Source of the DNA: Hymenobacter edaphi
GTDB taxonomy: Bacteria; Bacteroidota; Bacteroidia; Cytophagales; Hymenobacteraceae
DNA length: 64,000 nucleotides
Direction of reading: 5' to 3'
Assembly: GCF_003258365.1 (NCBI RefSeq)
Contig: NZ_QHKM01000001.1
Location: 1 to 64,000, forward strand
Of this stretch, positions 12,319 through 48,638 are shown piece after piece. The stretch's first letter is position 1. The number at the start of each line of letters is the position of its first letter. The translations under genes were made by a program, and so were the position numbers. The notes below the pieces were generated by a model. It was given only the letters and a program-made list of their open reading frames with translations, was not told the origin of the DNA and did no database searches.

Positions 12319-12334
12319 ACACAAACGATTGTGT
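12319..12334. promoter_or_regulatory. LacI-type operator upstream of tkt-tal
   Basis: ACACAAACGATTGTGT is a pseudopalindrome with one mismatched pair and the central CG typical of LacI-family sites. A near-identical site lies before GH51 (16617-16635). It is about 275 bases upstream of the tkt start codon and just after the GH43 stop, so tkt-tal is the most likely target. Confidence 0.72.
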
Positions 12335-12355
12335 TTGCGCGGCAAAAAAACGTGG

Positions 12356-13414
12356 TTACGGCTGCACTACGGGCCAGCCGGCCGCATCCCAGCCAAGCTT
12401 TTCCAGGCGCAGCTTGGAGCGGCCTTGGTCAGCCGCGTCGTAGCCATGGAACACCAAGTAGTCCGCGCCGTCGAAGGTGTAGACGGAGTTGTGGCCCAGG
12501 CCGTACCAGTTTTTGTCGCCGCTGAGCACGGGGGTGCCGCCGCCTTGCTCCAGGGGCAGGCCGGCCCGGTCGAGGTAGGGGCCGGTTACGGCCTTGGAGC
12601 GGCCCACCACGATGCGGTAGGTGCTCTGCGGACCGCGGCAGCAGTAGTCGAAGGAGGTGAAGAGGTAGTAGTAGCCGTTTTTACGGAAGATGAACGGCGC
12701 TTCGATGGCTCCGTCGCCGGGCTGGGCGTCGGGCAGCTTCGGGTCGCGGGGGCGGCTGGCCAGGGTGCGCCACTGTTCGGGCTGGGCGGGGGCGCGCAGG
12801 TCGGGGCGCAGCTGCACCAGCTTGATGCCGCCCCAGAAGGAGCCGAAGCTCAGCCAGGGCGTGCCCGCTTCGTCGCGGATCAGGTTGGGGTCGATGGCGT
12901 TCCAGTTGTCGCGCCCCGGCACCGACTGCAGCACCTTGCCCTGGTCTTCCCAGCGAAAATCCGGGGAGCGAGGGTCCAGGGTTTTGTTCGTGGCCAGCCC
13001 GATGCAGGAGGTGTTCTTGCCGAAAGCCGAGACGGAGTAGAACAGGTAGTAGCGCCCGTTGTGAAAGGAAATGTCGGGCGCCCAGATGTGGTCCTTGAAG
13101 CCCGGCACGGCCTGCTGGGCCCAGGCCGGCGGGGTGGCAAACACCGGCGCCTCGGCCTGCCAGGTTTTGCGGTCCTTGGACGACCACACCGCAATGCCGC
13201 GGCCGGTGCAGAACAGGTAGTAGGTGCCGTTCTGCTGCGCCATTACCGGGTCGTGGGCCGGAATCAGCGCCGGCGTTTTGGTCTGAGCCGCCGTGGGTTG
13301 CGCCGGGGCCGGCGGCGTCGTTTGGGCGGAGCCCGGCCGGGTGGCCAGGCCCAGCAGCAAGGTCAGCGCCAGCAGGCGGCCCGGCGTGGTGAGCGAAGAC
13401 GGGGAGTAGCTCAT
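12356..13414 (-). CDS. GH43 endo-alpha-1,5-L-arabinanase
   Basis: Secreted 352-residue single-domain GH43 enzyme predicted to cleave the arabinan backbone. A signal peptide ends near GSAQT (about 30). Catalytic residues are Asp55 in AHDPVM, Asp175 in NAIDPNLI and Glu238 in AIEAPFIF. It is clearly related to the GH43 domain encoded at 4655-6427 (shared WAPD/WAPE, IGLATN and NAIDP blocks), but lacks the lectin and T9SS tail. It begins 7 bases after the preceding GH43 stop and is the third gene of the GH51-GH43-GH43 unit. Confidence 0.92.
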   Translation of the reverse strand: MSYSPSSLTTPGRLLALTLLLGLATRPGSAQTTPPAPAQPTAAQTKTPALIPAHDPVMAQQNGTYYLFCTGRGIAVWSSKDRKTWQAEAPVFATPPAWAQQAVPGFKDHIWAPDISFHNGRYYLFYSVSAFGKNTSCIGLATNKTLDPRSPDFRWEDQGKVLQSVPGRDNWNAIDPNLIRDEAGTPWLSFGSFWGGIKLVQLRPDLRAPAQPEQWRTLASRPRDPKLPDAQPGDGAIEAPFIFRKNGYYYLFTSFDYCCRGPQSTYRIVVGRSKAVTGPYLDRAGLPLEQGGGTPVLSGDKNWYGLGHNSVYTFDGADYLVFHGYDAADQGRSKLRLEKLGWDAAGWPVVQP

Positions 13415-13421
13415 ACCGCTT

Positions 13422-14429
13422 TTACTGCACCGGTTTGACGCCCTCCGAGGTCATCTGCACCCGCTTCATCGTGCCGTCCTGGTTGTAGTACAGGTAGTCG
13501 ATGCACACGGAGCGGCGGAACGAGCCCCCGTCGGTGGGGATGCTGCCGTTGTGGTAGATGAAGTAGCTCTGCCCCTTGAAGTCGATGATGGCCTGGTGGT
13601 TGGTGTTGGAGTTGCCGGCCACCTCGTTCAGCAGGCCCTTGAACTCCCAGGGCCCCTCGGGGCTGCGGCTCATGGCGTAGGCTATTTTCTCCGGAAACTG
13701 GTAGGCATAACTCAGGTAGTACCAGCCGTTGCGCTTATGTAACCAGGGCGCTTCGGTGAAGCTGGGCAGGGTCTTGATCTGGTTGATCGGCCCGTCCAGC
13801 TCGGTCATGTTGGGCTTGAGTTTGGCCCAGTAGCAGATGGTGTTGCCCCAGTACAGGTAGGCCTGCCCCTTGTCGTCGATGAACACGGTGGGGTCAATAT
13901 CGTCCCAGCTGATTTTGGCGTCCGTGGTCATGTTGTTGGTAATCAGCGCCGAGCCGCGGGCATCCTTGAAGGGCCCGGTGGGGCTGTCCGACACGGCCAC
14001 GCCGATGGCCTTGCCCGGCACCGTGCCGTGCTCCACGGCCGCGTACCAGTAGAACTTGCCGCCGCGCTCCACCACCTGCGAGGCCCAGGCGTCGTCCTTG
14101 GCCCAGCCGAACGCCTTCACGTTGAGCGGCGACGGGTGCTCTTTCCAGTTGACCATGTCGGTGGAGGAAAAGCACAGCCACTCGTGCATCACGTAGCGCT
14201 GCTCGGGCGCCGGGGCCTCGTCGTGGCCGGCGTAGAGGTACACCGTGCCCTTGTGCACCAGCGCCGCCGGGTCGGCCGTGTACTTGTGCTTGATGACGGG
14301 GTTGCGGGGCGCCGGGGGCGCGGGCAGTTGCTGGGCCTGGCTCAGGCCAGCTACAGCCAGCAGCCCGGTGAGCAGCAGGGGGCGCAGCCCACTGGCCGCG
14401 CGCCCCCGCAAGGAAATCTGCTTGTTCAT
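13422..14429 (-). CDS. GH43 alpha-L-arabinofuranosidase or beta-xylosidase
   Basis: Secreted 335-residue GH43 enzyme of a different subfamily from its neighbours. A signal peptide ends near SQAQQ. The propeller shows Asp53 in YTADPA, Asp179 in DDIDPTVF and Glu226 in FTEAPWL as the catalytic triad. Many relatives carry a C-terminal CBM6; this one stops at the end of the catalytic domain. In an arabinan locus, removal of arabinose side chains is the most likely role, but specificity in this family cannot be read from sequence. Gaps of 6 and 7 bp on either side place it in one operon with GH51 and the endo-arabinanase. Confidence 0.88.
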   Translation of the reverse strand: MNKQISLRGRAASGLRPLLLTGLLAVAGLSQAQQLPAPPAPRNPVIKHKYTADPAALVHKGTVYLYAGHDEAPAPEQRYVMHEWLCFSSTDMVNWKEHPSPLNVKAFGWAKDDAWASQVVERGGKFYWYAAVEHGTVPGKAIGVAVSDSPTGPFKDARGSALITNNMTTDAKISWDDIDPTVFIDDKGQAYLYWGNTICYWAKLKPNMTELDGPINQIKTLPSFTEAPWLHKRNGWYYLSYAYQFPEKIAYAMSRSPEGPWEFKGLLNEVAGNSNTNHQAIIDFKGQSYFIYHNGSIPTDGGSFRRSVCIDYLYYNQDGTMKRVQMTSEGVKPVQ

Positions 14430-14435
14430 GGCCGC

Positions 14436-16508
14436 TTAGCGTTTGCCGGGAATGCGCAGAGTGGTAAAGGAGTAGGGCGCCAGCGTGTAGCTCACCTTGG
14501 GCGAGGCCACCTGGAAGCTTTCCTCCTTGGGCGCCACGTTGGTGGGCTGCTCCAGGCTGTTCACCGCGTTCAGGTCGGTCGAAGCCAGCACGATGGCCTT
14601 GCCGGCTTTGCCCAGCTTTTTGGCGCCCTGCAGGTTCAGCGTCACGGGGCGGGCCTGGGCCGAGTAGTTCACCAGCTTCACCACGATGTCGCCGGTTTGG
14701 GCGTCGACCACGGCGCTGCTGAAGAGGTTGTCGTCGCCGTTCTTGGCACCCGCGCCGCGCTGCACCGGCAGCACCGCGCTGCCGCGGTTGGTGCCGAACA
14801 GCTTCTGCACGTAGTAGTTGGGCGTGCCGTAGGCGCGCAGGTTGTCAAACCAGATCATGTCCGGCGTCCACTGCCAGGCATCGACGTGGGCGAAGAGCGG
14901 CGCGTACGAGGCCATAACCACCACGTCGGCGTTGCGCTCGAGCCCGGTCATGAACGCGGCCTCCGAAATGGCGCAGTCCCAGCTGTTCTTGTTGTCGGGC
15001 GAGCCGATGGCCACGCTCTGGGCGGCGTACTCGCCGGCGAAAATCTTGGGCCCGGTGCGGGCGTAGCTGTCGTAGCGGCCGGCGTTCTGGCGGAACCACT
15101 CCGGCTTGGCGTAGTAATGCTCGTCGATGAGGTCGGCCTTTAGCTCGCCCAGGCGCTTGGATGCGGCCGTAAACAAATCCCCGTCGGGGCTGGGGCCGGC
15201 GCTGCTCACAATCTTGATGTCGGGATACTTGGCGCGCAGGGCCTTGGCAAACGGCTCGTAGCGCTCCAGGTACTGCGGCCCCCACTGCTCGTTGCCGATG
15301 CCCAGGTACTTCAGGTTGAAGGAGGCCGGGTGGCCCATGGCGGCGCGCTTGGCCCCCCAGGGCGAGCTGACGGGCCCGTTGGCAAACTCCACCAGATCAA
15401 GCGCGTCCTGGATAAAGATGTCCAGCGACACGTCCCCGGTGCCGGGACCGGCTTCGCCCGCGTTGGGGCCGCCGGCGCGGCTCATGGGCGCCAGCTCACC
15501 GGAGTTGAACTGGCAGGCCATGCCCACGTTCAGCACCGGCAGCGGCTCGGCGCCGATGTCCTCCGAGAGCTGGAAGTACTCGAAGAAGCCTAGTCCGAAC
15601 GACTGGTAGTAGTCGGGCGTGGAGCGGTGCCTAAACTCCATGTTCCAGCGGTTCACCAGCGGCGTGCGCGCGCCCACGTCGCCGATGGTGGTCTTCCACT
15701 GGTAACGCTCGGCCAGGGTGCGGCCCTCCACGATGCAGCCGCCGGGAAAACGCAGAAAACCCGGCTGCATGTCCTTCAGCAGCTGCACCAGATCGGGGCG
15801 CAAGCCGTTGGGGCGCTGGTTGTAGGTATCCTTGGGAAACAGCGACACCACGTCCAGGTCGACCACCCCGGCTCCGTCCAGGGAAATGTCGAGGTGGGCC
15901 TTGGCCGTGGTGCCGGTGGGGCGTAGCGCCACTTTGTACTGCTTCCACTCGCTCGTCAGCCCGGTAATCTTGGTTTCGGCCAGCGCCTCGCCTTTCTCGT
16001 TTTCCAGCCGCACCAGCAGGCCGCTGAGGTTGCTGCCGGCCGGGCGCCGGGCGTACAGCGAGAGGGTGTACTCGGCGCCCTGCTTTACGCCCATACCGCG
16101 GAAACCCTCGTTACTCACCCCCGCGTCGGCATTGGCCGTGCGGGTGCCGATGCGCAGGTAGTGCGGGTTGGCGGCGCTGAGGGGCTGCTGGCTCATCACC
16201 GCGTAGGTTTCCAGCGTGAAGCCGCCCTTGCGCGCCTTCCAGCCCACCAGGGCCTGATCGGGCACTTCAAACGACTTGTTTTTCACCAGCTCCGGGTACA
16301 GCCCGCCGTCGGCGGCGAAGTTGATGTCTTCGAAGAACAGGCCGTACATGGTCTTGGACACCGGCGCGCCGGGTTTATCGACCTGCACGGTGATGGTGTT
16401 GCTGGCCGAAGGGGCCTGGGCTTGCACCAGCGCCGGCGCGGCTACTGCGCCGGCCAGGGCCAGCGGCAGCGCCCGCAACGCAACGCGAACGGGAGAAGCA
16501 GTCAGCAT
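14436..16508 (-). CDS. GH51 alpha-L-arabinofuranosidase
   Basis: Retaining alpha-L-arabinofuranosidase of 690 residues. The frame is open to 16610, but MLTASPVRVALR at 16508 begins a normal signal peptide ending near VQAQA. An N-terminal carbohydrate-binding-like beta domain (about 35-250) precedes the catalytic barrel. The acid/base is Glu407 in IGNEQWGPQ and the nucleophile is Glu493 in FAGEYA. A C-terminal beta-sandwich closes the protein. It is the first gene of the minus-strand arabinan operon and is divergent from the LacI regulator, with two operator-like palindromes in the shared 359-bp control region. Confidence 0.94.
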   Translation of the reverse strand: MLTASPVRVALRALPLALAGAVAAPALVQAQAPSASNTITVQVDKPGAPVSKTMYGLFFEDINFAADGGLYPELVKNKSFEVPDQALVGWKARKGGFTLETYAVMSQQPLSAANPHYLRIGTRTANADAGVSNEGFRGMGVKQGAEYTLSLYARRPAGSNLSGLLVRLENEKGEALAETKITGLTSEWKQYKVALRPTGTTAKAHLDISLDGAGVVDLDVVSLFPKDTYNQRPNGLRPDLVQLLKDMQPGFLRFPGGCIVEGRTLAERYQWKTTIGDVGARTPLVNRWNMEFRHRSTPDYYQSFGLGFFEYFQLSEDIGAEPLPVLNVGMACQFNSGELAPMSRAGGPNAGEAGPGTGDVSLDIFIQDALDLVEFANGPVSSPWGAKRAAMGHPASFNLKYLGIGNEQWGPQYLERYEPFAKALRAKYPDIKIVSSAGPSPDGDLFTAASKRLGELKADLIDEHYYAKPEWFRQNAGRYDSYARTGPKIFAGEYAAQSVAIGSPDNKNSWDCAISEAAFMTGLERNADVVVMASYAPLFAHVDAWQWTPDMIWFDNLRAYGTPNYYVQKLFGTNRGSAVLPVQRGAGAKNGDDNLFSSAVVDAQTGDIVVKLVNYSAQARPVTLNLQGAKKLGKAGKAIVLASTDLNAVNSLEQPTNVAPKEESFQVASPKVSYTLAPYSFTTLRIPGKR

Positions 16509-16616
16509 GGATTGTGGGAATGACGGGTGTGGGAAAGTAGAACCGGGCCCAGCCGTCGGCCGCGAGTAAACCGCGGGCCGTGCGGCGGTAAGCCGGACCA
16601 ATATTAACAAGTTGTT

Positions 16617-16635
16617 TTCACAAACGATTGTGTAA
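16617..16635. promoter_or_regulatory. LacI-type operator of the GH51-GH43-GH43 operon
   Basis: TTCACAAACGATTGTGTAA, with the same CAAACGATTG core (16621-16630) as the site at 12319. It lies 109 bases upstream of the GH51 start codon, just upstream of a candidate -7 box. Confidence 0.75.
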
Positions 16636-16837
16636 AGCGCAATTTATTCTTCGGCCCTCCGCCGCTTACCCCCTTTCAACCGGGGCTGATCTGCTTACTG
16701 GCCTGACTGGCCCTGATTCTCTACGTTTACTGAAACCTACCGCAGCGAGGATAGAAACAGCTTGCCCTTCAAGCCGTAGGGCCACGCGTCTAGGTCTGCC
16801 TCGTCGCAGTGCTATTTATCTGCGGCTTTGTTTATCT

Positions 16838-16857
16838 TTACACAAAGCATTGTGTAA
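16838..16857. promoter_or_regulatory. LacI-type operator overlapping the lacI promoter
   Basis: TTACACAAAGCATTGTGTAA is a 20-base palindrome with one mismatched pair. It ends 10 bases before the lacI start codon and overlaps the candidate -7 box TATCTTTA, so autoregulation is likely. Confidence 0.75.
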
Positions 16858-16867
16858 CCATTGTTGT

Positions 16868-17971
16868 ATGGCTCCCCGGAAAAAAGCTACCTCCGTGCCA
16901 AATTCCCCCGTATCCATGGCCGATTTGGCCCGGGAGCTGGGCGTATCGATGACCACCGTTTCGCGGGCCCTGAGCGACCATTTCAGCATCGGGCCCGAGA
17001 TGAAGCTCAAGGTGCAGAAGCTGGCCAAGAAGTACAACTACCAGCCCAACCGCATGGCCTCGGCCCTGCGCAAGGGGCAAAGCAAACTGCTGGGCATCAT
17101 CGTGCCCTACCTGGAAGGCCGCTTTTTCCCCAAGGTGGTGCGCGGCATGGAAACGGCCGCCAGCCGCGCCGGCTACAACGTGGTCATCTGTCAGTCGAAC
17201 GAGGACTTGACCCACGAGCGGCGCAACATCGAGTCCTTGCTCAGCGCCCAGGTGGCCGGCATCCTGGTCTCCGTTTCGCGCACCACCGACGACTTCCGCC
17301 ACTTCGAGAAAGTGCGCGGGCGCGGGCTGCCGCTGGTGTTTTTCGACCGCATGATGCCCGGCGACGCCCTCAACGCCGTCGTGCTCGACGACCGGGAAGG
17401 CGGCTACTTGGCGACCCGCCACCTGCTGGCCCAGGGCGGCCGCCGCGTGGCCCACTTCGGCGGCCTGCAGCAGTTGACCATCTACCGCAACCGCTACCAG
17501 GGCTACCGCGACGCGCTGGCGGAGGCCGGCTTGCCCGTAGAAGAGGAGCTAACCTATTTCGGCGACAACACCGAAGAGGCCGGCGCCGAAGCCATGCGCC
17601 GCTGGCTGGCCCTGCCCAATCCGCCCGACGCCGTGTTTGCCGCCGGCGACTACGCCGCCCTCGGGGCCATGCAGGAAGCCGAACGGCAGGGCCTGGTGGT
17701 ACCCACTGATATGGCCGTCGGTGGTTTCAGCAACGAAACGTTTACCCCCATTGCCAAGCCTTCCATCACCACCGTCGACCAGCGCTGCGATGAGATGGGG
17801 CAGGCAGCGGTGCGGCTGCTGCTGGAGCTCATCGACGCGCAGGCCCAGGGCCTCGACTTTGCTTCCCGGCAGCTCGTGCTCCGGCCGGAGCTGATCATTC
17901 GAGAGTCCTCGCAGCGTCTGGGCCGCCTCAGCCCCACGCCCGAGCCGCTGGCTGATGCCGCCGTGCAGTAA
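16868..17971 (+). CDS. LacI-family regulator of the arabinan locus
   Basis: DNA-binding repressor of 367 residues. The frame is open from 16628, but the operator and promoter occupy the upstream part and the protein proper begins at MAPRKKATSV (16868). The helix-turn-helix is at about 17-45, with recognition helix SMTTVSRALSD. The hinge sequence is NRMASALRKG, and a periplasmic-binding-protein-like effector domain follows (LGIIVPYLEGRFF onward). It is divergent from the GH51 operon. The predicted inducer is arabinose or an arabino-oligosaccharide, by context only. The GH43 lipoprotein gene follows 95 bp downstream. A paralogue with the same architecture is encoded at 46202-47245. Confidence 0.93.
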   Translation: MAPRKKATSVPNSPVSMADLARELGVSMTTVSRALSDHFSIGPEMKLKVQKLAKKYNYQPNRMASALRKGQSKLLGIIVPYLEGRFFPKVVRGMETAASRAGYNVVICQSNEDLTHERRNIESLLSAQVAGILVSVSRTTDDFRHFEKVRGRGLPLVFFDRMMPGDALNAVVLDDREGGYLATRHLLAQGGRRVAHFGGLQQLTIYRNRYQGYRDALAEAGLPVEEELTYFGDNTEEAGAEAMRRWLALPNPPDAVFAAGDYAALGAMQEAERQGLVVPTDMAVGGFSNETFTPIAKPSITTVDQRCDEMGQAAVRLLLELIDAQAQGLDFASRQLVLRPELIIRESSQRLGRLSPTPEPLADAAVQ

Positions 17972-18066
17972 CACGCCGGCTCCATTCGCGCGGTAAGGCC
18001 AGGGCGCCGGGTGGTCGCGCTGGCGGCACGTCTTCACTCTGTTCAAGAGGAAATAGCCCTTTCCTG

Positions 18067-19719
18067 ATGCCTGCACCTCTCTTTCCCGCCCGCGTGTTCC
18101 CATTTTTCCGCCTTTCCCTCGCCGCCCCGCTGCTGACCGCGGGTATGCTGGGCCTGCTGCCTGCCTGCCGGCAGCCCGCCGCGCCGTCGCACAAAACGAC
18201 CGCGCCGAAACAGGCTGCGGCTCCGCCCGCTACGGTCGCCGCCCCCATCAGCAACCCCGTGCTGCCCGGCGACTACCCCGACCCGTCCGTCGACAAACTG
18301 GGCGACACGTATTGGGCTTCGGCCACTACCTCCAACTGGGGGCCGATCTTTCCGTTGCTCAGGTCCAAGAACCTGAGCGAGTGGGAGCTGGTCGGCCACG
18401 TCTTCCCCGATAAGCTGCCCGCCTGGGCCGACTACTACTTCTGGGCGCCCGAAATCAGCTTCGAGAAGGGCAAAACCTACATCTACTACACCGCTCACAA
18501 GCGCGGCGGCAACCTCTGCGTGGCCGTGGCCAGCGCCGACCGGCCCGAAGGCCCCTACACCGACCACGGCCCGCTGGTAGGGCAGGAGGTTGGCTCCATC
18601 GACGGCTTCCCGATGCGCGACGAAAACGGGGTGCTCTACCTGATCTGGAAGGAAGACGGTAACAGCCGCAACCGGCCCACGCCTATCTGGGCCCAGCAGC
18701 TGAGCGAGGACCGCAAAAGCCTGCTGGGGCAGCCGCGGGAGCTGTTTCGCAACGACCAGCGCTGGGAGGGCAACCTGGTGGAGGGCGTCTCCATGGTCCG
18801 CCGCGGCGACTATTTCTACGCCTTCTACGCCGGCAACGGCTGCTGCGGCAATGCCTGCACCTACGGCACCGGCGTAGCCCGCGCCAAAAAGCTGCTCGGC
18901 CCCTGGGAAAAGTACGCGCAGAACCCGGTGATGCTCAGCAACGATACCTGGAAGTGCCCCGGCCACGGCAGCGTGACGCAGCGCAACGGGCAATGGTTTC
19001 TCCTGCACCACGCCTACCACAACCGCGGTTGGGAGTACGTGGGCCGGCAGGGCGTGCTCAGCGAATTCCGCTGGACGGCTGCTGGCTGGCCCGAATTTAT
19101 CAACCAGCGCACGTCGGGCACCCCCGGCGTGCCCACCACCCAGAGCCGGCAGGCCGTCCGGGACGAGTTCGAAGGCCGCGCACTGGGCCGTGCCTGGCAG
19201 TGGCCCGTCGAAGCCAAGCCCACCTTCGCCCTGAAAGACGGGCAGCTGCGCCTCACGGCCCGCCCCGATGCCGGCGGGGCCGCGCTCGGCCACCCCGTTT
19301 ACACTGCGGATTTCACGGCCTCGACCACGCTGCTGGCGGCCAGCCAGCTACCCGCCGGCGCCGCGGCCGGCCTGGCCGCCCTGGGTGACCCGGAAAACAC
19401 GCTGGCCCTGACCGCCGGCGGCGGCAAGCTGCAGCTCTGGCAGCTGGAAAAGGGCAAGCGCCGGGTGCTGGGCGAAACGGTCTTACCGGCCGTGCCGGCC
19501 GTCACGCTGCGCCTGGAAGCGCAGGGCGGCAAGCAGTACCGCTTCAGCTACAGCACCGACGGCGGCAAGGCCTGGCAGCCCCTGCCCGCGGGCAACGCGC
19601 CCATCGACGGCGCCTACCTGCCGCCCTGGGACCGGGGCGTGCGCGCCGGCGTGCTGGCGCTGGGGCCAGCTACAGTAACGGCCGCCTTTGACGACTTCGT
19701 GCTGGATGGTAAGCCGTAA
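18067..19719 (+). CDS. GH43 lipoprotein with C-terminal beta-sandwich domain
   Basis: Predicted lipid-anchored 550-residue glycosidase. The N-terminal signal ends in a lipobox-like LLPAC, so the mature protein would start at Cys36. The GH43 propeller spans about 60-360, with Asp in DYPDPSV (general base), Asp in GSIDGFP (modulator) and Glu in NLVEGVSM (acid). Residues about 370-550 form a second beta-sandwich (DEFEGRALGRAWQW onward) like the C-terminal domain that shapes the active site in GH43 beta-xylosidases and exo-acting arabinosidases. It probably trims oligosaccharides at the cell surface or in the periplasm. It lies downstream of lacI and may be co-transcribed with it. Confidence 0.88.
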   Translation: MPAPLFPARVFPFFRLSLAAPLLTAGMLGLLPACRQPAAPSHKTTAPKQAAAPPATVAAPISNPVLPGDYPDPSVDKLGDTYWASATTSNWGPIFPLLRSKNLSEWELVGHVFPDKLPAWADYYFWAPEISFEKGKTYIYYTAHKRGGNLCVAVASADRPEGPYTDHGPLVGQEVGSIDGFPMRDENGVLYLIWKEDGNSRNRPTPIWAQQLSEDRKSLLGQPRELFRNDQRWEGNLVEGVSMVRRGDYFYAFYAGNGCCGNACTYGTGVARAKKLLGPWEKYAQNPVMLSNDTWKCPGHGSVTQRNGQWFLLHHAYHNRGWEYVGRQGVLSEFRWTAAGWPEFINQRTSGTPGVPTTQSRQAVRDEFEGRALGRAWQWPVEAKPTFALKDGQLRLTARPDAGGAALGHPVYTADFTASTTLLAASQLPAGAAAGLAALGDPENTLALTAGGGKLQLWQLEKGKRRVLGETVLPAVPAVTLRLEAQGGKQYRFSYSTDGGKAWQPLPAGNAPIDGAYLPPWDRGVRAGVLALGPATVTAAFDDFVLDGKP

Positions 19720-19950: not shown

Positions 19951-20004
19951 GCAGCAGGTCGAGAAGCACCGGTTATCCGCCTGATCAAGTTCAGACAATG
20001 GCCC

Positions 20005-21831: not shown

Positions 21832-21844
21832 TTGGGGTTCAAGA

Positions 21845-41200: not shown

Positions 41201-41458
41201 GCCGGCCGATACGGCGTCGGAGGTCATGTACTTCATGCCGGGCACGCCGTTGATGGCCTGCTCCAGCGGAATGAGCACCGACTCGGTCAGCACTTTGGCG
41301 CTGGCGCCCGGGTAGGCCGTGCTCACCATCACCATGGGCGGCGAAATCTCCGGGAACTGGGAGTTCGGGAGGGTATTGATGGCCAGCACGCCCAGGAACA
41401 TGATGACCACCGATATGACGATGGCAAATACGGGCCGGCGAAGGAATCTACTGAACAT
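38267..41458 (-). CDS. RND efflux pump, AcrB/HAE1 family
   Basis: Proton-driven inner-membrane pump of 1063 residues for hydrophobic and amphiphilic compounds. The twelve-helix duplicated layout is intact. The proton-relay pair is visible in GIVVDDAIVVVE (TM4), and family marks include FPEISPPMV, GASAKVLTESV and a later GLLGKNAVLIVEFA. It lies between its adaptor (upstream) and outer-membrane channel (downstream). It could export drugs, bile-like compounds or metabolites; nothing here tells which. Confidence 0.96.
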   Translation of the reverse strand: MFSRFLRRPVFAIVISVVIMFLGVLAINTLPNSQFPEISPPMVMVSTAYPGASAKVLTESVLIPLEQAINGVPGMKYMTSDAVSAGEANIQIVFNLGTDPEQAVVNVNTRIAQILNRLPVLVQREGVVVNRVVPNMLMYVNLYSKDKNTDMRYLFNFAGVNMLPEIQRIDGIGRASILGSRQYAMRVWLKPDRMRAYNLSVDDVMEALNDQSVIGSPGRIGRSDGKEASALEYVLTYKGRFNDVEEYKNVIIRANSNGETLRLKDVANVELGSEFYDIYSNLDGYPSAAIVLKQTYGSNASDVIKRVKSKLEELKKTMPPGMDYKISYDVSNFLDASTENVIHTLRDAFILVALVVFLFLGDWRSTLIPIIAVPVSLVGAFIAMQAFGMTINMITLFALVLAIGIVVDDAIVVVEAVHAKMEEKHLSPYGAVREVVGEISGAIIAITVLMTAVFVPVAFMSGPVGIFYRQFSITMASSIVISGIVALTLTPVLCAMILKNTHGQPRKKTPINRFIDWFNRGFEQLTGHYTNFLEKVVDRRLITFGILALFGFGIFGISATLPSGFIPAEDQGMLYAIIQTPPGSTLERTNALSQQLSKLAKEVPGVESISSLAGYEVLTEGRGSNAGTLLIDLKPWDKRKQSIHDIVEGLEQKAKEIPGATIEFFEPPAVPGYGAAGGFQLQLLDKTSTGDYKALEKVNEEFMTELKKRKELAGLFTFFSANYPQYELQIDNQLAMQKGVSIGNAMNTLSIMVGSTYELGFIKYQRFFKVFVQASPEYRRLPKDILDMWVKNDKGEMVPFSAFMKIVKGQGANEINRYNMYPTASIRGDAAPGYSSGEALKAVQEVAAKTLPRGYDIDWGGLSKDEVGRGNEAIYIFLVVLAFVYLVLAAQYESFLLPLAVIFSLPAGIFGSFLLIKGMGLANNIYAQVGLVMLVGLLGKNAVLIVEFAVQKREEGMTVRAAAIEGAKVRFRPILMTSFAFIAGLIPLVLAHGAGAIGNRTIGTSALGGMLFGTIFGVIIVPGLYYIFGTLADGRKLIHDENEHPLSEFEPHVLVEEIAESHA

Positions 41459-41564
41459 GTTTATGCGCTTGTTGCTAGGGTAGGGGGGGAGGCGGGTAGG
41501 AGGGTAGGAGGCAGAGCACGTAACTCTTACCCTCCCACCCGCCTACCCTCATGCCCTTCAAATA

Positions 41565-42653
41565 CTACTCCGAGTAAGTTTTCAGGTGCGGAATCACCGC
41601 TTTCGGGTCTTCGTACTTGAAGTCGATTTTGTCGCCGTCTTTCACCTTGCGGATGCCTTCGAGCAAAATGTTGTCGCCCGCTTTCAGGCCGCCGGTGACG
41701 ACGAACAAATCCGGCATTTCGGCCCCCACGGTGACTTCCGTCTGGTGCACCCGCCGCTTGGCGTCGACCACGTAGACGAACTTCTTCTCCAGCACTTCAA
41801 AGGTGGCTTTCTGCGGGATGATGAGGGCGTTTTTCAGGGGCACGGTCATCAGCACCGAGCCGGTTTCGCCGTTGCGCAGCAGGCCCTTGGGGTTGGGGAA
41901 AGTGGCCCGGAAGGCGATGTTGCCGGTTTCGTTGTTGAAGTCGGCCTCGATGGTCTGCACCACACCGGGCTGGTCAAACACCTCGTTGTTGGCCATGCGC
42001 AGCCGCACGTTCAGCGGGCCAGCGGCCTGGGCGTGGGTTTTGTAGGCCAGGTACTCGGCCTCGGGCACGTTGTAGTACACCCACATCTTGCTGTTGTCCG
42101 ACAGGGTGGTCAGCAGGTCGCCCTCGTCGACGAGGCTGCCCAGCCGGGCCTGGAAGTGGTCCATGATGCCGCTGAACGGCGCCCGGATGGTGGTGAAACC
42201 CAGGTGCGTCTGGGCCAGGGACACTTCGGCGCGGGCCTTTTCCAGCTTGGCCTGCGACAGGGCCAGCTCGTTGGCCGACACCACGTTCTTGTCGGCCAGC
42301 TTCTTGGTGTTCTGGTACTCGATGCCCACGAACTTGGCCTCGGCCTCGGCTTTTTTCAGCTCGGCCTGGTAGAGCAGCGGCATGATCTGGAACATGAGCT
42401 GCCCCTGCTTCACTTGCTGCCCTTCATCGACGAAAATCTTCTGCAGGTAGCCTTTTTCCAGCGCCCGCAGCTCGATGTGCTGGATGGAGTGAATCTGGGC
42501 CACGTACTCCTTGGTAATGGTCGTGTCGCGCTGCAGTGGGCTGGTAACCAGGAATTTTACCTTTTCTTCCTTGGCCTCTTGGTGTTTCGAGCAGCTTGTG
42601 GTGCAATACCAGACAACCAGGCTCATCAGCATGAGCAGGAATGTTCTTTTCAT
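41565..42653 (-). CDS. RND efflux periplasmic adaptor, AcrA family
   Basis: Membrane-fusion protein of 362 residues. Although the frame continues upstream to 42890, the lipoprotein signal MKRTFLLMLMSLVVW...TTSC begins at 42653, with the lipidated Cys near 21. A lipoyl-like domain with ELRALEKGYLQKIFVDEG and a coiled hairpin (about 95-160) are followed by TTIRAPFSGIMD and beta-barrel and membrane-proximal domains. A 106-base gap containing an imperfect CT/AG-rich inverted repeat separates it from the pump gene. Confidence 0.94.
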   Translation of the reverse strand: MKRTFLLMLMSLVVWYCTTSCSKHQEAKEEKVKFLVTSPLQRDTTITKEYVAQIHSIQHIELRALEKGYLQKIFVDEGQQVKQGQLMFQIMPLLYQAELKKAEAEAKFVGIEYQNTKKLADKNVVSANELALSQAKLEKARAEVSLAQTHLGFTTIRAPFSGIMDHFQARLGSLVDEGDLLTTLSDNSKMWVYYNVPEAEYLAYKTHAQAAGPLNVRLRMANNEVFDQPGVVQTIEADFNNETGNIAFRATFPNPKGLLRNGETGSVLMTVPLKNALIIPQKATFEVLEKKFVYVVDAKRRVHQTEVTVGAEMPDLFVVTGGLKAGDNILLEGIRKVKDGDKIDFKYEDPKAVIPHLKTYSE

Positions 42654-43062
42654 GAGAATCTGGAAAGTGATTCTAGCGGATGTGGAGTGGTGGAGAAGTG
42701 CGCAAAACGGGGTGCCGGGCCGCTGCCTCGGGGCACCCGGCGGCTGCCGGGGATGCCCCGGCAGCCGCCGACGTAGCCGGCCGGGGGATATGCATGCGTT
42801 GTAAGCGGCCCTGCGCCCGCCGCCCGGCCTGCGCCCCCGGGGGCAATGCCCGCCCCGGCCTTGATCGGGGAAGACAAATTGGAGGGGCAAGAGCGGCGCG
42901 GCAGGGCTTAGGTGGTGAGTTGACGCTGCAAACCAAAGCAGGCAGGCATGAAGCGGATATGAAGCAAGGCGCTACCTGGCTGCCGCACTCCGGACATCCG
43001 CGGGCGCCGGGCGCAGCGACAAAAAGCCGGCGCGGGCGGGCCGCCGGAAATTTATGCGGTGC
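42654..43062. other. Upstream region of the efflux operon with a strong hairpin
   Basis: No gene seen. CGGCGGCTGCCGGGG (42738-42752) and its complement (42756-42770) form a 15-bp stem with a 3-base loop, 85 bases before the adaptor start codon. No Bacteroidota -7 box was found on the minus strand. Confidence 0.5.
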
Positions 43063-43137
43063 GAGTAGGGGTGATGGGGCCGATGGGTGTAGTACCCCAA
43101 ACGTTTGCAGCAGCCGGTCACAAACGTTTGGGGCTGC
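43063..43137 (+). promoter_or_regulatory. Promoter module with two LacI-type operators, SGNH/LamG gene
   Basis: Carries CAAACGTTTG at 43098-43107 and 43121-43130; both palindromes are perfect and their centres lie 23 bp apart. The preceding GAGTAGGGG...GGTGTAGTAC (43063-43095) aligns without gaps to 48564-48596 upstream of fecR. The second site is extended to CAAACGTTTGGGGC. About 270 bases separate it from the start codon at 43407. Confidence 0.75.
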
Positions 43138-43406
43138 GGCCGCTACTTCGGCGTGGTCCGGGGCCCACCCGGCGCCCTTTCCCAATCCTTGTTCAATGGC
43201 TCACCCATGCTTCCGCATTGCCCGGCCGAATCCCGGGCGTAGCCGCCGCCAGCGGCGGCTGCGCCTGGGTGGTGAAGCAAAAAGGCAGTCGGCAGTTGCG
43301 GGTGGTCGATTAGCAGGCTGTTCTGATGCAGCCCGCTCCCAACTGCTGACGGCCCGTCGCTGGCAACTCAAAACGGACAACTCCCACCCCTCTTTCCCCA
43401 ATTTTC

Positions 43407-46040
43407 ATGCGTAGACTGCTACTTCTACTGGCCTGGAGCGCCCTGATGGGGGGCGCGGCGCGGGCGCAGGCCGTGCGCTCGGTGCTGGCCGATTTCGGGC
43501 CCAACGACGTGACCAACGGCAACATCACGCCCAGCCCCGACGCCAACGGCAATTACTGGAACAACATCCTGAACCAGACCGGCGTGGCCGATACCTTCCG
43601 CCTGGTCGACCGCGCCAACGCGGCCACCGGCATCAAGCTCAAGGTGGGGGCCAACTTCCTCACCAACGGCATTGCCACCGGCGGCCTGCTCGCGCCCGAC
43701 CCGGCCTTGCTCGGCCAGTACGCCATTGCCACCGCCACCCAGGACTACTTCTTTCTGCAGGGCACCGGCGCCACCAGCGTGGGCACGCTGCGCCTCAGCG
43801 GGCTGGACCGCTCGAAGCGCTACGTGTTTCACCTCTTCGGCAGCCGCGTGGCCACCGCCGAAACCCGCGTGACGCAGTACAAGCTCACCGGCAGCACCGT
43901 CAACACCCTCACCCTGACCACCACCGGCCCGGGCGTGGGCGCGGGCGGCTACGCCGGCAACAACAACACGCTGGCGCACTCCGACACGCTCACGGCCGAC
44001 GCCAGCGGGGCCATCGTGCTCGAAGTCAGCAAGGCCGCCGGCTCGTTTGCCTACCTGAACCTGCTGCGCATCGACGTGGTGCCCGGGCGCCCCGCGGGGG
44101 TGAGCTACGCCTTCCAGAACACCGGCTTCGAGCTGGGTAACCTGAGCTTCTGGACGGCCACCGGCAACGCGGCCGGCGCCTCGGTAACCACCGTCACCAA
44201 ACACCTGGGCGCCTACGCGGCCCGGCTCAGCGGCGCCAGCGTGGGCCTGCAGCAGCAGATCAGCTACCGCCCCGCCGCGGGCGTGACGAGCTACCGCCTC
44301 AGCGGCTACTTGCTGAACCCCAGCGGCGCCGAGGCCCTGCGCGGTGCGCAGTCGGCCCACCTGGAGCTGCTCTACTACGACCAGGCCCTGGCGCTGCTCG
44401 GGCGCTTCCGCTCCGATTCGCTGGTGGCCGCCTCGCCCGCCAATGCCTGGACGCGCCTCGACGCCATCGGCACGATTCCGGCGGGCACGGCCTTCGTGCG
44501 GGCCGCCGCCGTGTGGCGCAACGCCGCCGGGGCCGCCGGCAGCGCCTACTTCGACGACCTGGAGCTGGCTCCCTACGTACCCCAGAACCCCTTTAAGCTG
44601 ACCTACATCGGCTCGTCGGGGGCCTACGGCACGGGTGCCACCAACAACCGCGGCTACACCACCCTCTACGCCGAGCTGCTGACGCGCCGCAACACCGCCG
44701 GCCGGGGCGCGCCCTGGGTGACGGCCAACGTGTGCGTACCCGGCAACAACACCGTGGACGTACTCGGCCGCTTCGAGCGCGACGTGCTGCCCCAGAACGG
44801 CCGGTACGTGATGATCGGGCTGGTGCTCGGCAACGAGGGCATCATCACCGGCGGGCAGGCCACCTTCAACCAGTTTCGCACCAACCTGATCCAGCTCATC
44901 ACCCTGGCCCGCGCCAACGGCCTGGTGCCCATCGTCAACAACGGCTACACCCGCAACGACTACACGGCCACCCAGTACACCTTCACCCGGCAGATGAACG
45001 CGCTGATCCACGGCTGGAACGTGCCCAGCGTGAACCTGCTCGGCGGCGTAGACGACGGCAACGGGCGCTGGGCCGAGGGCTACTGGTGGGACGCGCTGCA
45101 CCCCAACGACCGGGGCCACGCCGAGCTGTTGTACACCGTGGTGCCCTCGCTGCTGGACGCGCTGCACGCGGGCAAGGCCCTGCCGACCCGCCGCGCGAGC
45201 AGCGGTATCGTGCTGCGCAACGCCGCCACGGCCCCGGCCGACCTGATCCGCCTGACGCCCGAAGAGGTGGTGCACCCCTTCACCACTGCCTTGCGCTTCC
45301 GCACCGCGCAGGCCGGCCGCCTGGTGGAAGTGCAGGACAGCGCCGGCCTGAGCGCGGGCACCATCCGCATTGCCAGCAACGGCAAGGTGGTGTACCAGTC
45401 GGCCCGGGGCAACACCATCAGCGGCACGGTGACGGTGACGGACAACCGCTGGCACCAGCTGGTGCTGACCCACTACTACGCCCGCGGCGCCACCCAGCTC
45501 TACGTCGACAGCGTGCGCGAGGGCACCGTGCAGGAGCGCCTGCGCCCCACGCGCCTGGACCTTGGCGGCAACCAGGCCCCGGCCCGCCTGCAGCTGCGCG
45601 ACTGGCTGTTTTACCGCGCGGGCATGAACCAGGACGAAATCCGGGCCCTGGCCGCCGACTCGCTGCTCAAGTCCAGCCAGGAGCTGTACGCCCCGCTCGA
45701 CGGCCGCCGCGTGGTCAGCGCCGACTCGCTCACCAACCAGGCCCAGAGCCTGAACACGCTCACGCGCATCAGCAGCCCGCTGGCCGCGCGCGAATCGGCC
45801 CGGGCCGCCCTCGTCAGCCTCTACCCGAACCCGACCACCGGCGCGCTGACGCTGCAGGCCCCGCTGCACCTGGAGGGCGTGCCCGTGACGGTGTACGACC
45901 TGGCCGGCCGCGCTGTGCTGACGGCGCCGGTGCGCCACGGCCGCCTGAGCGTGGCCCGGCTGCCGGCGGGCATCTACACCCTGGCGTTGCGGCTGCCCGG
46001 CGAAACCATTCACAAGCGCCTGGTGAAGCTGGGCAACTAA
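43407..46040 (+). CDS. Multidomain T9SS protein with SGNH hydrolase and LamG domains
   Basis: Secreted protein of 877 residues. A signal peptide (about 1-21) precedes an unrecognised beta-rich domain (about 25-225) and a carbohydrate-binding-like domain (about 230-390). An SGNH/GDSL hydrolase domain follows (about 395-590), with IGSSGAYGTGATNN as the nucleophile block, LVLGNEG as the Asn block and WWDALHPNDRGH giving the Asp-His pair. A LamG-like sandwich (about 620-770) and a T9SS sorting domain from SLYPNPTTG (about 805) complete it. It is probably an esterase on acylated polysaccharide. The operators match those of the fecR-susCD promoter, placing it in that regulon. Confidence 0.85.
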   Translation: MRRLLLLLAWSALMGGAARAQAVRSVLADFGPNDVTNGNITPSPDANGNYWNNILNQTGVADTFRLVDRANAATGIKLKVGANFLTNGIATGGLLAPDPALLGQYAIATATQDYFFLQGTGATSVGTLRLSGLDRSKRYVFHLFGSRVATAETRVTQYKLTGSTVNTLTLTTTGPGVGAGGYAGNNNTLAHSDTLTADASGAIVLEVSKAAGSFAYLNLLRIDVVPGRPAGVSYAFQNTGFELGNLSFWTATGNAAGASVTTVTKHLGAYAARLSGASVGLQQQISYRPAAGVTSYRLSGYLLNPSGAEALRGAQSAHLELLYYDQALALLGRFRSDSLVAASPANAWTRLDAIGTIPAGTAFVRAAAVWRNAAGAAGSAYFDDLELAPYVPQNPFKLTYIGSSGAYGTGATNNRGYTTLYAELLTRRNTAGRGAPWVTANVCVPGNNTVDVLGRFERDVLPQNGRYVMIGLVLGNEGIITGGQATFNQFRTNLIQLITLARANGLVPIVNNGYTRNDYTATQYTFTRQMNALIHGWNVPSVNLLGGVDDGNGRWAEGYWWDALHPNDRGHAELLYTVVPSLLDALHAGKALPTRRASSGIVLRNAATAPADLIRLTPEEVVHPFTTALRFRTAQAGRLVEVQDSAGLSAGTIRIASNGKVVYQSARGNTISGTVTVTDNRWHQLVLTHYYARGATQLYVDSVREGTVQERLRPTRLDLGGNQAPARLQLRDWLFYRAGMNQDEIRALAADSLLKSSQELYAPLDGRRVVSADSLTNQAQSLNTLTRISSPLAARESARAALVSLYPNPTTGALTLQAPLHLEGVPVTVYDLAGRAVLTAPVRHGRLSVARLPAGIYTLALRLPGETIHKRLVKLGN

Positions 46041-46069
46041 CCCGGCCCGGGGCGGCCAACAACAGAAAA

Positions 46070-46100
46070 GGCGGCTGCCCGGTTGGGCAGCCGCCATTTT
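46070..46100. terminator. Bidirectional terminator between SGNH/LamG gene and lacI
   Basis: Perfect 11-bp stem GGCGGCTGCCC (46070-46080) and GGGCAGCCGCC (46085-46095), loop GGTT, with ATTTT after it on the plus strand and CTTTTCTG on the minus strand. It lies between convergent genes. Confidence 0.88.
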
Positions 46101-46201
46101 GCATACGGGCCACGGGCAGAAGCAGCGCCAGGCTTTCACCCGCGGCCGCCAGACCACCGCACCAGGTGCCACACGCAAGCATGAGGCCGGGCCGCGCGGC
46201 G

Positions 46202-47245
46202 CTACTTCCGCGGCTTGCGCAAGGACGACTCGCGCACCAGCAATTGGGGCTTGAGCACCACGTTGCGGGGCTGGGGCTGGCGGTGCTCGGCGGTGTGGTG
46301 CAGCATCTGCTGCAGCAGGCGCACGGCCGAAATGCCCATCGTCTCGCAGCCCTGGTCCACGCTGGTCAGGTTGGGCTCGGTGAGGGTGGTGAAGGTTTCG
46401 TTGCTGAAGCCGGCCACGGCCACGTCCTGGGGCACGCGCAGCCCGGCGGCCTTGATGACGCGCATGGCGCCCACGGCGGCCAGGTCGTTGGAGGCAAACA
46501 CGGCGTCGGGCGGGGCGGGCAGCTCGCGCAGCAGGCGCTGCATGGCCTCGGTGCCGCCGGCCTGGCTTTGCTCGCAGAACACGATGAGCTGCTCGTCGAG
46601 GGGCAGGCCGTGGTCGCGCAGCGCGTCGCGGTAGCCCTGGTGGCGGTTTTTGTGGATGCTCATGTGCAGCGGCCCCGAGAAGTGCGCAATGCGCCGGCAG
46701 CCCTGCTCGATCAGGTGCTGCACCACCTGGTAGGCGCCGGCGTGGTCGTCGAGCACCACGGCCGAAACGTTGGCCCCGCGGAAGTCCTCCACCACGCGGT
46801 CGAAGAACACCAGCGGCACGCCCTGCTGGCGCAGCTCCTCGAAGTGGCTGATGTCCTGGGTGGTATTGGCCAACGACACCATGATGCCCTCCACCTGGTT
46901 GTGGCGCAGCAGCTCGATGTTCTTTTTCTCCTGGGCCGCGTCCTCGTTGGATTGGCAGATCATCACCGTAAAGCCGGCCTTGCTGGCCTCGGTGGCAATG
47001 CCGTGCACCACCTGCGGGAAGAAGTGCCCGGTAATGTGGGGCACCAGCACGCCCAGCGTGTTGCTGCGCCCGCGGCGCAGGGCCGCCGCCAGCTGGTTGG
47101 GCTGGTAGTTCAGCTCCTGGGCCAGCTTGCGCACCCGGGCTTTGGTCGCCTCGCTCACCTCGCTGTGGTCGGCCAGGGCCCGCGACACGGTGGAGGGCGA
47201 CAGGTTGAGTTGTTTGGCCAGTTCCGTCAGGGACACCCGCTGCAT
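46202..47245 (-). CDS. LacI-family regulator of the second polysaccharide locus
   Basis: Repressor-type regulator of 347 residues and paralogue of the one at 16868-17971, with the same layout and strong similarity (shared LARxL-type HTH, QSNED, FFDR, GFSNETFT and RESS blocks). The helix-turn-helix lies at about 4-28, with recognition helix SPSTVSRALAD, then hinge NQLAAALRRGRS and the sugar-binding effector domain. At the two positions that read operator bases in LacI it has Pro-Ser where the arabinan regulator has Met-Thr. It is divergent from the ECF sigma gene. Likely targets are the CAAACGTTTGGGG sites at 43098-43130 and 48599-48631. Confidence 0.92.
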   Translation of the reverse strand: MQRVSLTELAKQLNLSPSTVSRALADHSEVSEATKARVRKLAQELNYQPNQLAAALRRGRSNTLGVLVPHITGHFFPQVVHGIATEASKAGFTVMICQSNEDAAQEKKNIELLRHNQVEGIMVSLANTTQDISHFEELRQQGVPLVFFDRVVEDFRGANVSAVVLDDHAGAYQVVQHLIEQGCRRIAHFSGPLHMSIHKNRHQGYRDALRDHGLPLDEQLIVFCEQSQAGGTEAMQRLLRELPAPPDAVFASNDLAAVGAMRVIKAAGLRVPQDVAVAGFSNETFTTLTEPNLTSVDQGCETMGISAVRLLQQMLHHTAEHRQPQPRNVVLKPQLLVRESSLRKPRK

Positions 47246-47478
47246 CGTCGTCGTTGGTTAAGTCAAGTTGCGCCGCGTGAAAACCCGCGCCGGCCGCTGG
47301 GGTTACGATTGCCCCGGTGGCGGCCAACGGCCCCACGGGCGCAGCACCGGGCCAAGTTACCGCCCCGCGCCCGATAATCGGCACGCCGAGTATCGGGCGG
47401 GTCCGAAATGGGATTCTGCCCCGCCACCCGCGTGATTTTTTTGTTAATTTTAGTGCCCTTTTTCAACCCTCCGCCCGA
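47246..47478. promoter_or_regulatory. Divergent region between lacI and ECF sigma gene
   Basis: Contains an inverted repeat CCCGATA...TATCGGG (about 47370-47397) and an AT-rich TTTTTTGTTAATTTTAG (about 47437-47453) just before the sigma gene, including TAATTTTA as a candidate -7 box. A partial site ACGATTG (47305-47311) is too weak to call an operator. Confidence 0.4.
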
Positions 47479-48075
47479 GTGGAAGTAGCGCGTGACTTTT
47501 CTGAACTGGACTGCCTCCGACGGCTGCGGCTGGGCGACGAGCGGGCCTTCGACGCGCTCTTCCGGCACTACAGCGCGCTGGTGTACCGCTTCGCCTACAG
47601 CTACCTCAAGGCCCGGCCCGAGGCCGAGGAAATCGTGCAGGAGTGCTTTCTGAAAATCTGGGAAAAGCGCGCGCAGATTCACGACGACGTGCCGCTGAAG
47701 GGCTACCTCTTCACGGTGGCCCACCACGCGGTGCTCAACCAGCTGCGGCGGCGCCAGCACCACCTGCGCTTCCAAGCCTACACCACGGCCGCCGCGCCGC
47801 AGCACGCCCAGGTGGGCAACGAGGCCGAGTTTGCCGAGCTGGAAACGCTCTACCGCTCGGCCCTGGAGCAGCTGCCGCCCAAGCGCCGCGAAATTTTCGA
47901 GCTGAGCCGGCAGCAGGGCCTCTCGTACCCCGAAATAGCCGCCCAGCTCAACCTCTCGGTGAAAACCGTGGAAGCGCAGATGTCGCACGCGCTGAAATTC
48001 ATGCGCGAGTATTTTCAGGCCCACGGCGAAGGCGCCGCCGGGCTGGTGCTGGTGCTGGCGGTGGCCGGGTGGTAA
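47479..48075 (+). CDS. ECF RNA polymerase sigma factor, FecI-like
   Basis: Sigma-70 family regulator of about 198 residues. The frame has an ATG only at 47317, which would add residues of no sigma character, so the GTG at 47479 (VEVARDFSELD) is preferred. Region 2 contains ALVYRFAYSYLKARPEAEEIVQ (shown here only as its two blocks ALVYRFAYSYL and AEEIVQECFLKIW), and region 4 has LPPKRREIFELSRQQG, then LSYPEIAAQLNLSVKTVEAQ. It belongs to the Bacteroidota type that pairs with FecR anti-sigma factors and SusC proteins. Here FecR lies 636 bases downstream instead of adjacent. Confidence 0.9.
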   Translation: MEVARDFSELDCLRRLRLGDERAFDALFRHYSALVYRFAYSYLKARPEAEEIVQECFLKIWEKRAQIHDDVPLKGYLFTVAHHAVLNQLRRRQHHLRFQAYTTAAAPQHAQVGNEAEFAELETLYRSALEQLPPKRREIFELSRQQGLSYPEIAAQLNLSVKTVEAQMSHALKFMREYFQAHGEGAAGLVLVLAVAGW

Positions 48076-48251
48076 CCGGGCGGTTGCGGGCGGTGAGGGA
48101 GTGGCGTCTGGCCCGCAATGCAGCACGTCAGGCCGAGGGCAGCCGAGGCATCCTCGCGGGCTGACCATTTACCTGAACGCAAGCCGCGTTATCCTGAGCA
48201 GAGCGAACCGCAGGTCGACGTAGTCAAGGACCTGGCTCGAACCATGACTGC

Positions 48252-48299
48252 TAAGCGCAGCCACCATGCCCAATCGTTTGGGCATGGTGGCTGCGCTTC
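48252..48299. promoter_or_regulatory. 21-bp perfect palindrome centred on a LacI-type core
   Basis: Arms 48253-48273 and 48278-48298 pair perfectly around TCGT. The centre reads GCCCAATCGTTTGGGC, whose CAATCGTTTG is the reverse complement of the CAAACGATTG core used elsewhere. It could be a hairpin ending the sigma transcript, an upstream operator, or both. No T run follows. Confidence 0.55.
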
Positions 48300-48563
48300 G
48301 ACGTTCACGCGCTCCTCAACAGCGTCTGCACTTCGTAGGCAGCGGCGGTGCAGGGCGCGACCCGGGTCTTGCGTCCTCGCTTGATGCGCGATATGCTCCG
48401 GGTGACGGGCTTTTTGTCCGTTCAACAGATCAATCAACGCCTGCGCAGCCATCCAGCTACCGGCCAAAAAGTGCTGTTCCAGCCCTGGCGGCCGCACTGA
48501 CGGCACAGCTGGCCGCACTTTATCGGGCTGAGACAGAACGCACTTGCATTTTTTTTCGGGGTA
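48300..48563. other. Intergenic stretch upstream of the fecR promoter
   Basis: No intact gene. On the minus strand, two frames between about 48320 and 48460 read ALIDLLNGQKARHPEHI and ISRIKRGRKTRVAP, protein-like but in different frames, perhaps a remnant. An A/T-rich stretch lies at about 48545-48557. Confidence 0.35.
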
Positions 48564-48638
48564 GAGTAGGGGGGATGCCCCCCAGCGGTGTAGTACTGCA
48601 AACGATTGGGGAATTCACTCCCAAACGTTTGGGGCGCC
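48564..48638 (+). promoter_or_regulatory. Promoter module with two LacI-type operators, fecR-susCD
   Basis: Carries CAAACGATTG (48599-48608) and CAAACGTTTG (48622-48631), centres 23 bp apart, after GAGTAGGGG...GGTGTAGTAC (48564-48596). The spacing and flanks are the same as in the module at 43063-43137. It lies 74 bases before the fecR start codon. Confidence 0.75.

Follow-up and report, generated by a model that had tools for sequence, protein, structure and literature searches.

Two LacI-family repressors encoded in the first 64 kb of contig C11 of the 6.04-Mb Hymenobacter edaphi genome (hereafter, the window) appear to recognize operators that share the core CAAACG.TTG and differ chiefly at half-site position 6 (NT-6). 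The sites at the second repressor's locus, first noticed for a GGGG flank, belong to what sequence comparison marks as a composite promoter, a conserved box followed by two operators 23 bp apart. The two proteins, P0001 and P0002, carry different recognition pairs at AA-15 and AA-16 (Met-Thr in P0001 and Pro-Ser in P0002), and we refer to the corresponding classes as Thr16 and Ser16. Taken as a whole, we consider it probable that Thr16 and Ser16 repressors with operators differing at base 6 are combined here with a LacI roadblock over a promoter read by an extracytoplasmic function (ECF) sigma factor. The protein families are known and their arrangement is unusual. An earlier note on this DNA was right about the sites, all of which we recovered in place, and wrong in proposing a duplication of one regulator and a recognition code based on its flanks.

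The shared core does not occur at random. In either orientation, CAAACGWTTG is found at 7 distinct places in the window, compared with a mean of 0.15 and a maximum of 3 in 300 dinucleotide shuffles, and at one or no mismatch it has 16 strand matches (shuffle mean, 5.26; largest, 14). Genome-wide, the core has 32 matches in the forward direction (reversed control, 4) and 22 in the reverse (reversed control, 7). These matches represent 38 distinct places, only 3 of them inside rough gene calls, and at 25 of the 38 position 6 is G in one or both half-sites. Six of the seven window operators listed in Table 1 are even palindromes with a central CG, while the seventh (16840-16855) is GC centered.

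The two places with the GGGG flank align without gaps over about 70 bp, comprising the box AGTARGGG-N14-GGTGTARTAC, two bases, a core, 13 bases, and a second core. No perfect copy of the pattern CCCCAAACGWTTGGGG exists in the genome; at two or fewer mismatches it has 7 forward and 10 reverse matches (2 and 1 in the control). The flank itself is present at both places but is mostly one-sided, and position 6 in the 8 half-sites of the two window pairs is mixed (C in 5, G in 2, A in 1); GGGG was rejected on these grounds as a signature of a regulon. The 23-bp operator pair appeared in none of 300 dinucleotide shuffles of the window. Across a family comparison sample of 150 genomes, the pair CAAWCGWTTG-N13-CAAWCGWTTG at one mismatch was found at 9 places in 7 genomes (reversed control, 0), with the box directly before the first operator in 7 of the 9 (two each in the window and G002 and one each in G148, G073, and G064). 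The box pattern alone, also at one mismatch, gave 16 matches in 13 of the 150 genomes. Eleven of these, from 8 genomes, are the module or its gene setting (two each in the window, G002, and G073 and one each in G064, G148, G011, G138, and G091), and all 6 perfect matches are among the 11. In G011 the operator spacing is 22 bp, and in the second G073 copy operator 2 is degraded. G138 and G091 have a sigma factor gene, the box about 20 bp after it, and then a gene judged fecR-like from its first residues, with no operators. The other 5 matches lie inside called genes (G149, G046, G062, and G037) or in noncoding DNA without a sigma motif or operator (G060). A loose promoter scan with 5 mismatches yielded mostly noise.

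The genes for the ECF sigma factor, the FecR-type anti-sigma factor, SusC, and SusD stand together in one locus (47317-54689). A sigma factor gene of one type is present in the locus in 7 of the 8 box-setting genomes scanned (the window, G002, G073, G064, G011, G138, and G091), with Pfam support for the window, G073, and G011. In G064, G073 (second copy), G011, G138, and G091, the sigma factor gene ends about 20 bp before the box, and the gene that follows the box is in several of these genomes fecR-like, judged from its first residues. In the window, by contrast, the sigma factor gene and the box are separated by 490 bp that include a hairpin. In G002, the genes for the sigma factor, FecR, SusC, SusD, the GDSL protein, and P0002 (99% identity) stand together, and a very long extra reading frame lies between the second pair and the GDSL gene. 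Genes of the GH30 and esterase-like types lie downstream in the window, which suggests that the substrate may be an acetylated plant glycan.

Table 1. Coordinates of the regulators, operators, promoter boxes, and neighboring genes in the window
Feature	Position	Strand	Basis or remark
P0001, LacI-family repressor, recognition pair Met-Thr, predicted arabinose/arabinan regulator	16868..17971	+	Sequence, Pfam
P0002, LacI-family repressor, recognition pair Pro-Ser	46202..47245	-	Sequence, Pfam
TGTG-class operator ACACAAACGATTGTGT	12319..12334		275 bp 5' of transketolase gene (start 12043, minus strand)
TGTG-class operator TCACAAACGATTGTGT	16618..16633		Between arabinofuranosidase gene (14439-16610, minus) and P0001 (plus)
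GC-centered operator ACACAAAGCATTGTGT	16840..16855		Ends 12 bp 5' of P0001 start codon; likely autoregulatory
Promoter box AGTAGGGG-N14-GGTGTAGTAC	43064..43095	+	Upstream of GDSL gene
Operator 1 of pair CCCCAAACGTTTGCAG	43095..43110		GDSL-side pair
Operator 2 of pair TCACAAACGTTTGGGG	43118..43133		GDSL-side pair, 23 bp from operator 1
GDSL-lipase-like protein with Por sorting tail	43407..46040	+	Domain search
ECF sigma factor	47317..48075	+	Domain search
Perfect hairpin, 46 bp, 21-nt arms	48253..48298		Holds core match at 48271; resembles dispersed repeat family
Promoter box AGTAGGGG-N14-GGTGTAGTAC	48565..48596	+	Upstream of fecR
Operator 1 of pair CTGCAAACGATTGGGG	48596..48611		fecR-side pair
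Operator 2 of pair TCCCAAACGTTTGGGG	48619..48634		fecR-side pair, 23 bp from operator 1
FecR-type anti-sigma factor	48712..49719	+	Domain found in 48658-49713
SusC-like TonB receptor	49776..53201	+	Domain search
SusD-like lipoprotein	53226..54689	+	Domain search

The core match at 48271 was rejected as an operator and is probably not one, given that it sits in the perfect hairpin. The dispersed repeat family that this hairpin resembles, AAGCGCAGCCACC..., has 12 strand matches genome-wide at three or fewer mismatches and none in the reversed control. The copy in the window, shorter than the family pattern by one base, is not among the 12. The core match at C21:685944 was likewise rejected as an operator, as it matches the same repeat family with the same arms.

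The operators, their spacing, the box, the gene neighborhoods, and the conservation are read from the sequence, and from them we infer how proteins pair with sites, that the box is an ECF promoter, and a logic of two signals. We hypothesize that P0002 (Ser16) most likely represses the neighboring SusCD/GH30 polysaccharide locus from the two operators abutting the promoter box, and that the box is probably read by the neighboring ECF sigma factor. FecR would hold this sigma factor until the outer membrane receptor (SusC) senses substrate, and the LacI protein on the paired operators would keep initiation blocked until freed by an intracellular sugar. Before transcription could start, the sigma factor would have to be set free by the outside signal and LacI by the inside sugar, and two signals may in this way be needed to turn on plant-sugar genes. 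Boxes exist both with operators and without them (G138 and G091), and the two layers of control are therefore separable experimentally. We regard as evenly balanced the fuller proposal in which LacI over the ECF-sigma promoter makes the locus depend on outside glycan and inside sugar, gain or loss of the operator pair is uncoupled from the promoter (G138 and G091 carry the box alone), and the choice of Thr or Ser at AA-16 changes the base at position 6 in a way that the published LacI code does not cover. Prediction of ECF-sigma promoters is difficult for the sugar loci of Bacteroidota, and the comparison made here marks a candidate box.

The relation between recognition residues and base 6 was examined by scanning up to 700 bp 5' of the AA-15 codon of 173 distinct LacI proteins for cores, with at most one mismatch allowed in CG-centered sites and none in GC-centered sites. 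The set comprised 55 Thr16, 116 Ser16, and 2 Ala-Ala proteins, and 54 of the 55 Thr16 proteins were taken as P0001 orthologues, with L304 dropped. Upstream sites were found for 42 of the 54 P0001 orthologues, whose CG-centered half-sites (n = 98) have A at position 6 in 85, G in 7, C in 3, and T in 3. For Ser16 proteins, 25 of 116 have a site, and position 6 of their half-sites (n = 72) is G in 57, T in 8, A in 6, and C in 1; these sites are mostly PurR-like GCAAACG, not GGGG. By recognition pair, sites precede 12 of 41 Pro-Ser, 8 of 31 Val-Ser, 2 of 31 Ala-Ser, both Cys-Ser, 1 of 4 Lys-Ser, and none of 7 other Ser16 proteins, and the scan found none for either Ala-Ala protein. For 9 of the 12 Pro-Ser proteins with a core, at least one site carries G at position 6 in both half-sites; for 2 others G is confined to one side, and L114 lacks it on either side. 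C flanking both sides is seen in none of the 12. These counts led us to reject a simple code in which Pro-Ser specifies GGGG, as the earlier note had it. With Thr at AA-16, the flank A accompanies Met, Leu, Thr, or Val at AA-15. AA-16 is the sole position among the first 60 that fully separates the Thr and Ser classes, with AA-1, 4, 5, 15, and 29 nearly doing so. The distant set L234-L273 contains no Thr16 protein and consists of Ser16 proteins and three Ala-Ala proteins (L245, L250, and L257). A single change on the tree accounts for the whole split between the classes. Phylogeny therefore cannot demonstrate what AA-16 does, and the link of AA-16 to base 6 is a correlation from one event.

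A published LacI code gives a point of reference. As set out in the parts of Camas et al. (2010; PMC2978694) that bear on the TVSR group, AA-16 is the strongest specificity residue, AA-15 and AA-16 are tied to NT-5 and NT-4, and Arg at AA-20 is tied to G at NT-6. Both of our operator classes have C,A at NT-5,NT-4, and both protein classes have Arg at AA-20. The Ser16 class fits the Arg20-G rule, with G in 57 of 72 half-sites, whereas the Thr16 class departs from it, having Arg in 54 of 54 proteins yet A in 85 of 98 CG-centered half-sites. The idea that the two residues of the pair read the flank is not supported: the code places them on bases that are the same in both operators, while the difference lies at NT-6. 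The second residue (Thr or Ser) does track NT-6, but only through one evolutionary change. The Thr16/Ser16 pair is a direct test case for which LacI residue reads base 6.

Both regulators are confirmed as LacI-family proteins, exceeding the PF00356, PF13377, and PF00532 cutoffs (a LacI-type helix-turn-helix and a periplasmic-binding-protein-like domain), and they share 51% identity. Their reported difference at exactly two residues is correct within the recognition helix, but 29 of 59 positions differ across the whole DNA-binding domain. The genome encodes 11 PF00356 proteins, 10 of them Ser16. In a FastTree phylogeny of 172 proteins, the nearest paralogue of P0001 within its own genome is L026 (Val-Ser), at a distance of 1.257 compared with 1.598 for P0002, and the nearest to P0002 is L025 (Pro-Ser; 0.693); P0001 and P0002 are thus not mutually nearest among the paralogues of the genome, and a private duplication of one ancestral regulator is not supported. 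The flanks and the two recognition residues do differ, as would be expected if a duplicated ancestor had given rise to regulons separated by TGTG versus GGGG and read by Met-Thr versus Pro-Ser. We nevertheless judge this scenario very improbable in light of the number and relationships of the LacI paralogues, the prevalence of G at position 6 and the lack of C on both sides at Pro-Ser sites, and the placement of the two residues on positions 5 and 4, identical in both operators, in the portions of the code (PMC2978694) cited above. Two further points against it are the retention of TGTG by Leu-Thr, Thr-Thr, and Val-Thr orthologues and the G011 version of the module, where inspection by eye shows G at position 6 for 3 of the 4 half-sites.

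It is rather likely that P0002 is the protein acting on the 23-bp pairs, as it is positioned between two pairs in both the window and G002. The pairs might instead be bound by another Ser-class LacI protein, such as the Pro-Ser protein L025, or by several core-sharing paralogues; the 10 Ser16 proteins and the 25 core places with G at position 6 in this genome would suit such an arrangement, as would the pairs in G073, G064, and G148, near which no LacI gene was called. We consider this alternative unlikely, if worth weighing, in view of the placement of P0002 and of a Pro-Ser relative in G144 (74%) that adjoins a dinB-type polymerase gene (PF00817), the same neighborhood as that of the pair in G148 (PF00817) and in G073 and G064 (same first residues). 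Several observations weigh against our proposal of P0002 acting at an ECF-sigma promoter and of base 6 tracking the repressor class. G006 keeps a P0002 orthologue (94%, next after G002) without such a locus or pair nearby. Gene calls within roughly 10 kb of the pairs in G073, G064, and G148 include no LacI gene, and a paralogue would therefore have to act in trans there; each of these genomes has a relative of 72 to 73% elsewhere. The G expected for Ser16 proteins occupies only 2 of the 8 window-pair half-sites, and under the scan criterion 91 of the 116 Ser16 proteins and 12 of the 54 P0001 orthologues have no site. On the promoter side, the box pattern has 8 matches in the reversed control and 5 true-strand matches elsewhere, the pairs in G004 and G007 have no box, and G148 has the block, yet no sigma factor gene was found in the 20 kb scanned.

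The pairs in G004 and G007 (L203, 9912-9944; L204, 9921-9953) have different upstream sequence and precede an amylase-like gene (Pfam for G007), and the 23-bp spacing therefore recurs outside the sigma-linked locus. The flank of the dinB-type polymerase gene (L200, L201, L202, and L141) seems to be an insertion hot spot, with different sugar-locus parts or a LacI gene in each genome. For relatives at 71 to 75% identity (L133-L146), of which 12 of 14 are Pro-Ser with the same first residues, no CAAACG palindrome was among the footprinting matches listed. An upstream block (TAGATTGCG...GAATTCCCATCTA) is common to many of the L133-L146 LacI genes and contains no LacI-type core.

P0001 looks like a conserved arabinose/arabinan repressor of Hymenobacter, and the nearest named relative found is from Hymenobacter gummosus (97% identity). 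We propose that cACAAACGNTTGTg sites are where P0001 (Thr16) would act to repress its own gene, the transketolase gene, and the genes for arabinose and arabinan. At two or fewer mismatches, ACACAAACGWTTGTGT has 12 strand matches at 7 places genome-wide (reversed control, 2 and 2). Three are in the window (C11:12319, 16618, and 16840), at the transketolase gene, the GH43/arabinofuranosidase cluster, and P0001. The sites at C12:1770 and 1795 precede a row made up of a SusC-like gene, SusD, and two GH43 genes, the site at C8:30795 precedes an aldose epimerase gene running off the contig, and the site at C12:9603 precedes a gene cut by the contig end and without a Pfam match. The two C12 operators stand 25 bp apart 5' of the SusC gene (L054, 1770-1810), and transposase-like fragments (by first residues) adjoin at the contig end. 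In a genus sample of 8 genomes, the 16-mer at one mismatch is present in 5, and a TGTG-class site lies upstream of the transketolase gene in L210 (Pfam); in L212 and L213, such a site precedes genes that match this gene in their first residues. The gene order in G002 runs from an epimerase-like gene (first residues as in the C8 gene) through an FGGY sugar kinase, a class II aldolase (araD-like), and araA (Pfam) to the Met-Thr LacI gene, and G006 resembles it by first residues. Since the window starts with araD-like and araA genes, as in the G002 row, the C8 contig end probably joins the araD/araA operon. CG-centered sites of P0001 orthologues are mostly about -210 to -490 from the AA-15 codon. 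These neighborhoods, together with the sites upstream of the 42 orthologues, bear out the view of the TGTG sites as what looks like a conserved arabinose regulon.

The GC-centered element directly before P0001 is likely an autoregulatory operator, in which the center has been swapped to GC and which P0001 would probably bind more weakly. The motif CAAWGCWTTG lies 101 to 125 bases before the AA-15 codon in 22 of 54 P0001 orthologues and in none of the 116 Ser-class proteins. An RNA hairpin in the P0001 leader could also account for an element that ends so close to the start codon and can pair as an 8-bp stem with a 4-nt loop. We consider this improbable, because folding of the leader is not unusual (z-score, -0.90; 34 of 200 shuffles at least as good), the arms are those of the operator, and the divergent L089 and L216 copies (the latter, TACGCAAAGCGTTGCGTA, outside the strict count) preserve the central GC despite changed flanks.

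Among LacI-family factors counted in the relevant part of PMC4052901, 1,251 of 1,303 have even palindromes, 1,173 with a CG center, 49 with a different center, and 29 with a degenerate center. The system in the window resembles the local sugar regulators described there in domain makeup, predicted local control of sugar genes, putative autoregulation, and even palindromes. It differs in that position 6 of the P0001 sites is A although the protein has Arg20, and in that the putative operator of the P0001 gene itself is GC centered. Relative to the code as given in the cited parts of PMC2978694, both proteins are alike in the TVSR group and in C,A at NT-5,NT-4, while Thr or Ser at AA-16 tracks NT-6, which the code assigns to AA-20. 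The window locus and the Bacteroides polysaccharide loci treated in sections of PMC3878776, where ECF promoter prediction is called a challenging task, both combine ECF sigma, anti-sigma, SusC, and SusD; relative to those loci, the window adds a LacI-type operator pair abutting a putative ECF promoter box. LacI-family AraR repressors (as summarized in PMC10766802 and PMC5928203) control arabinose and arabinan genes, the role predicted here for P0001. Arabinose and arabinan gene control in Bacteroidota is also shared with AraR of B. thetaiotaomicron, which according to the passages on it in PMC4666351 and PMC3878776 belongs to the NrtR family, whereas in the window a LacI-family protein seems to have this role, making P0001 a candidate Hymenobacter arabinose regulator from a family other than the Bacteroides one.

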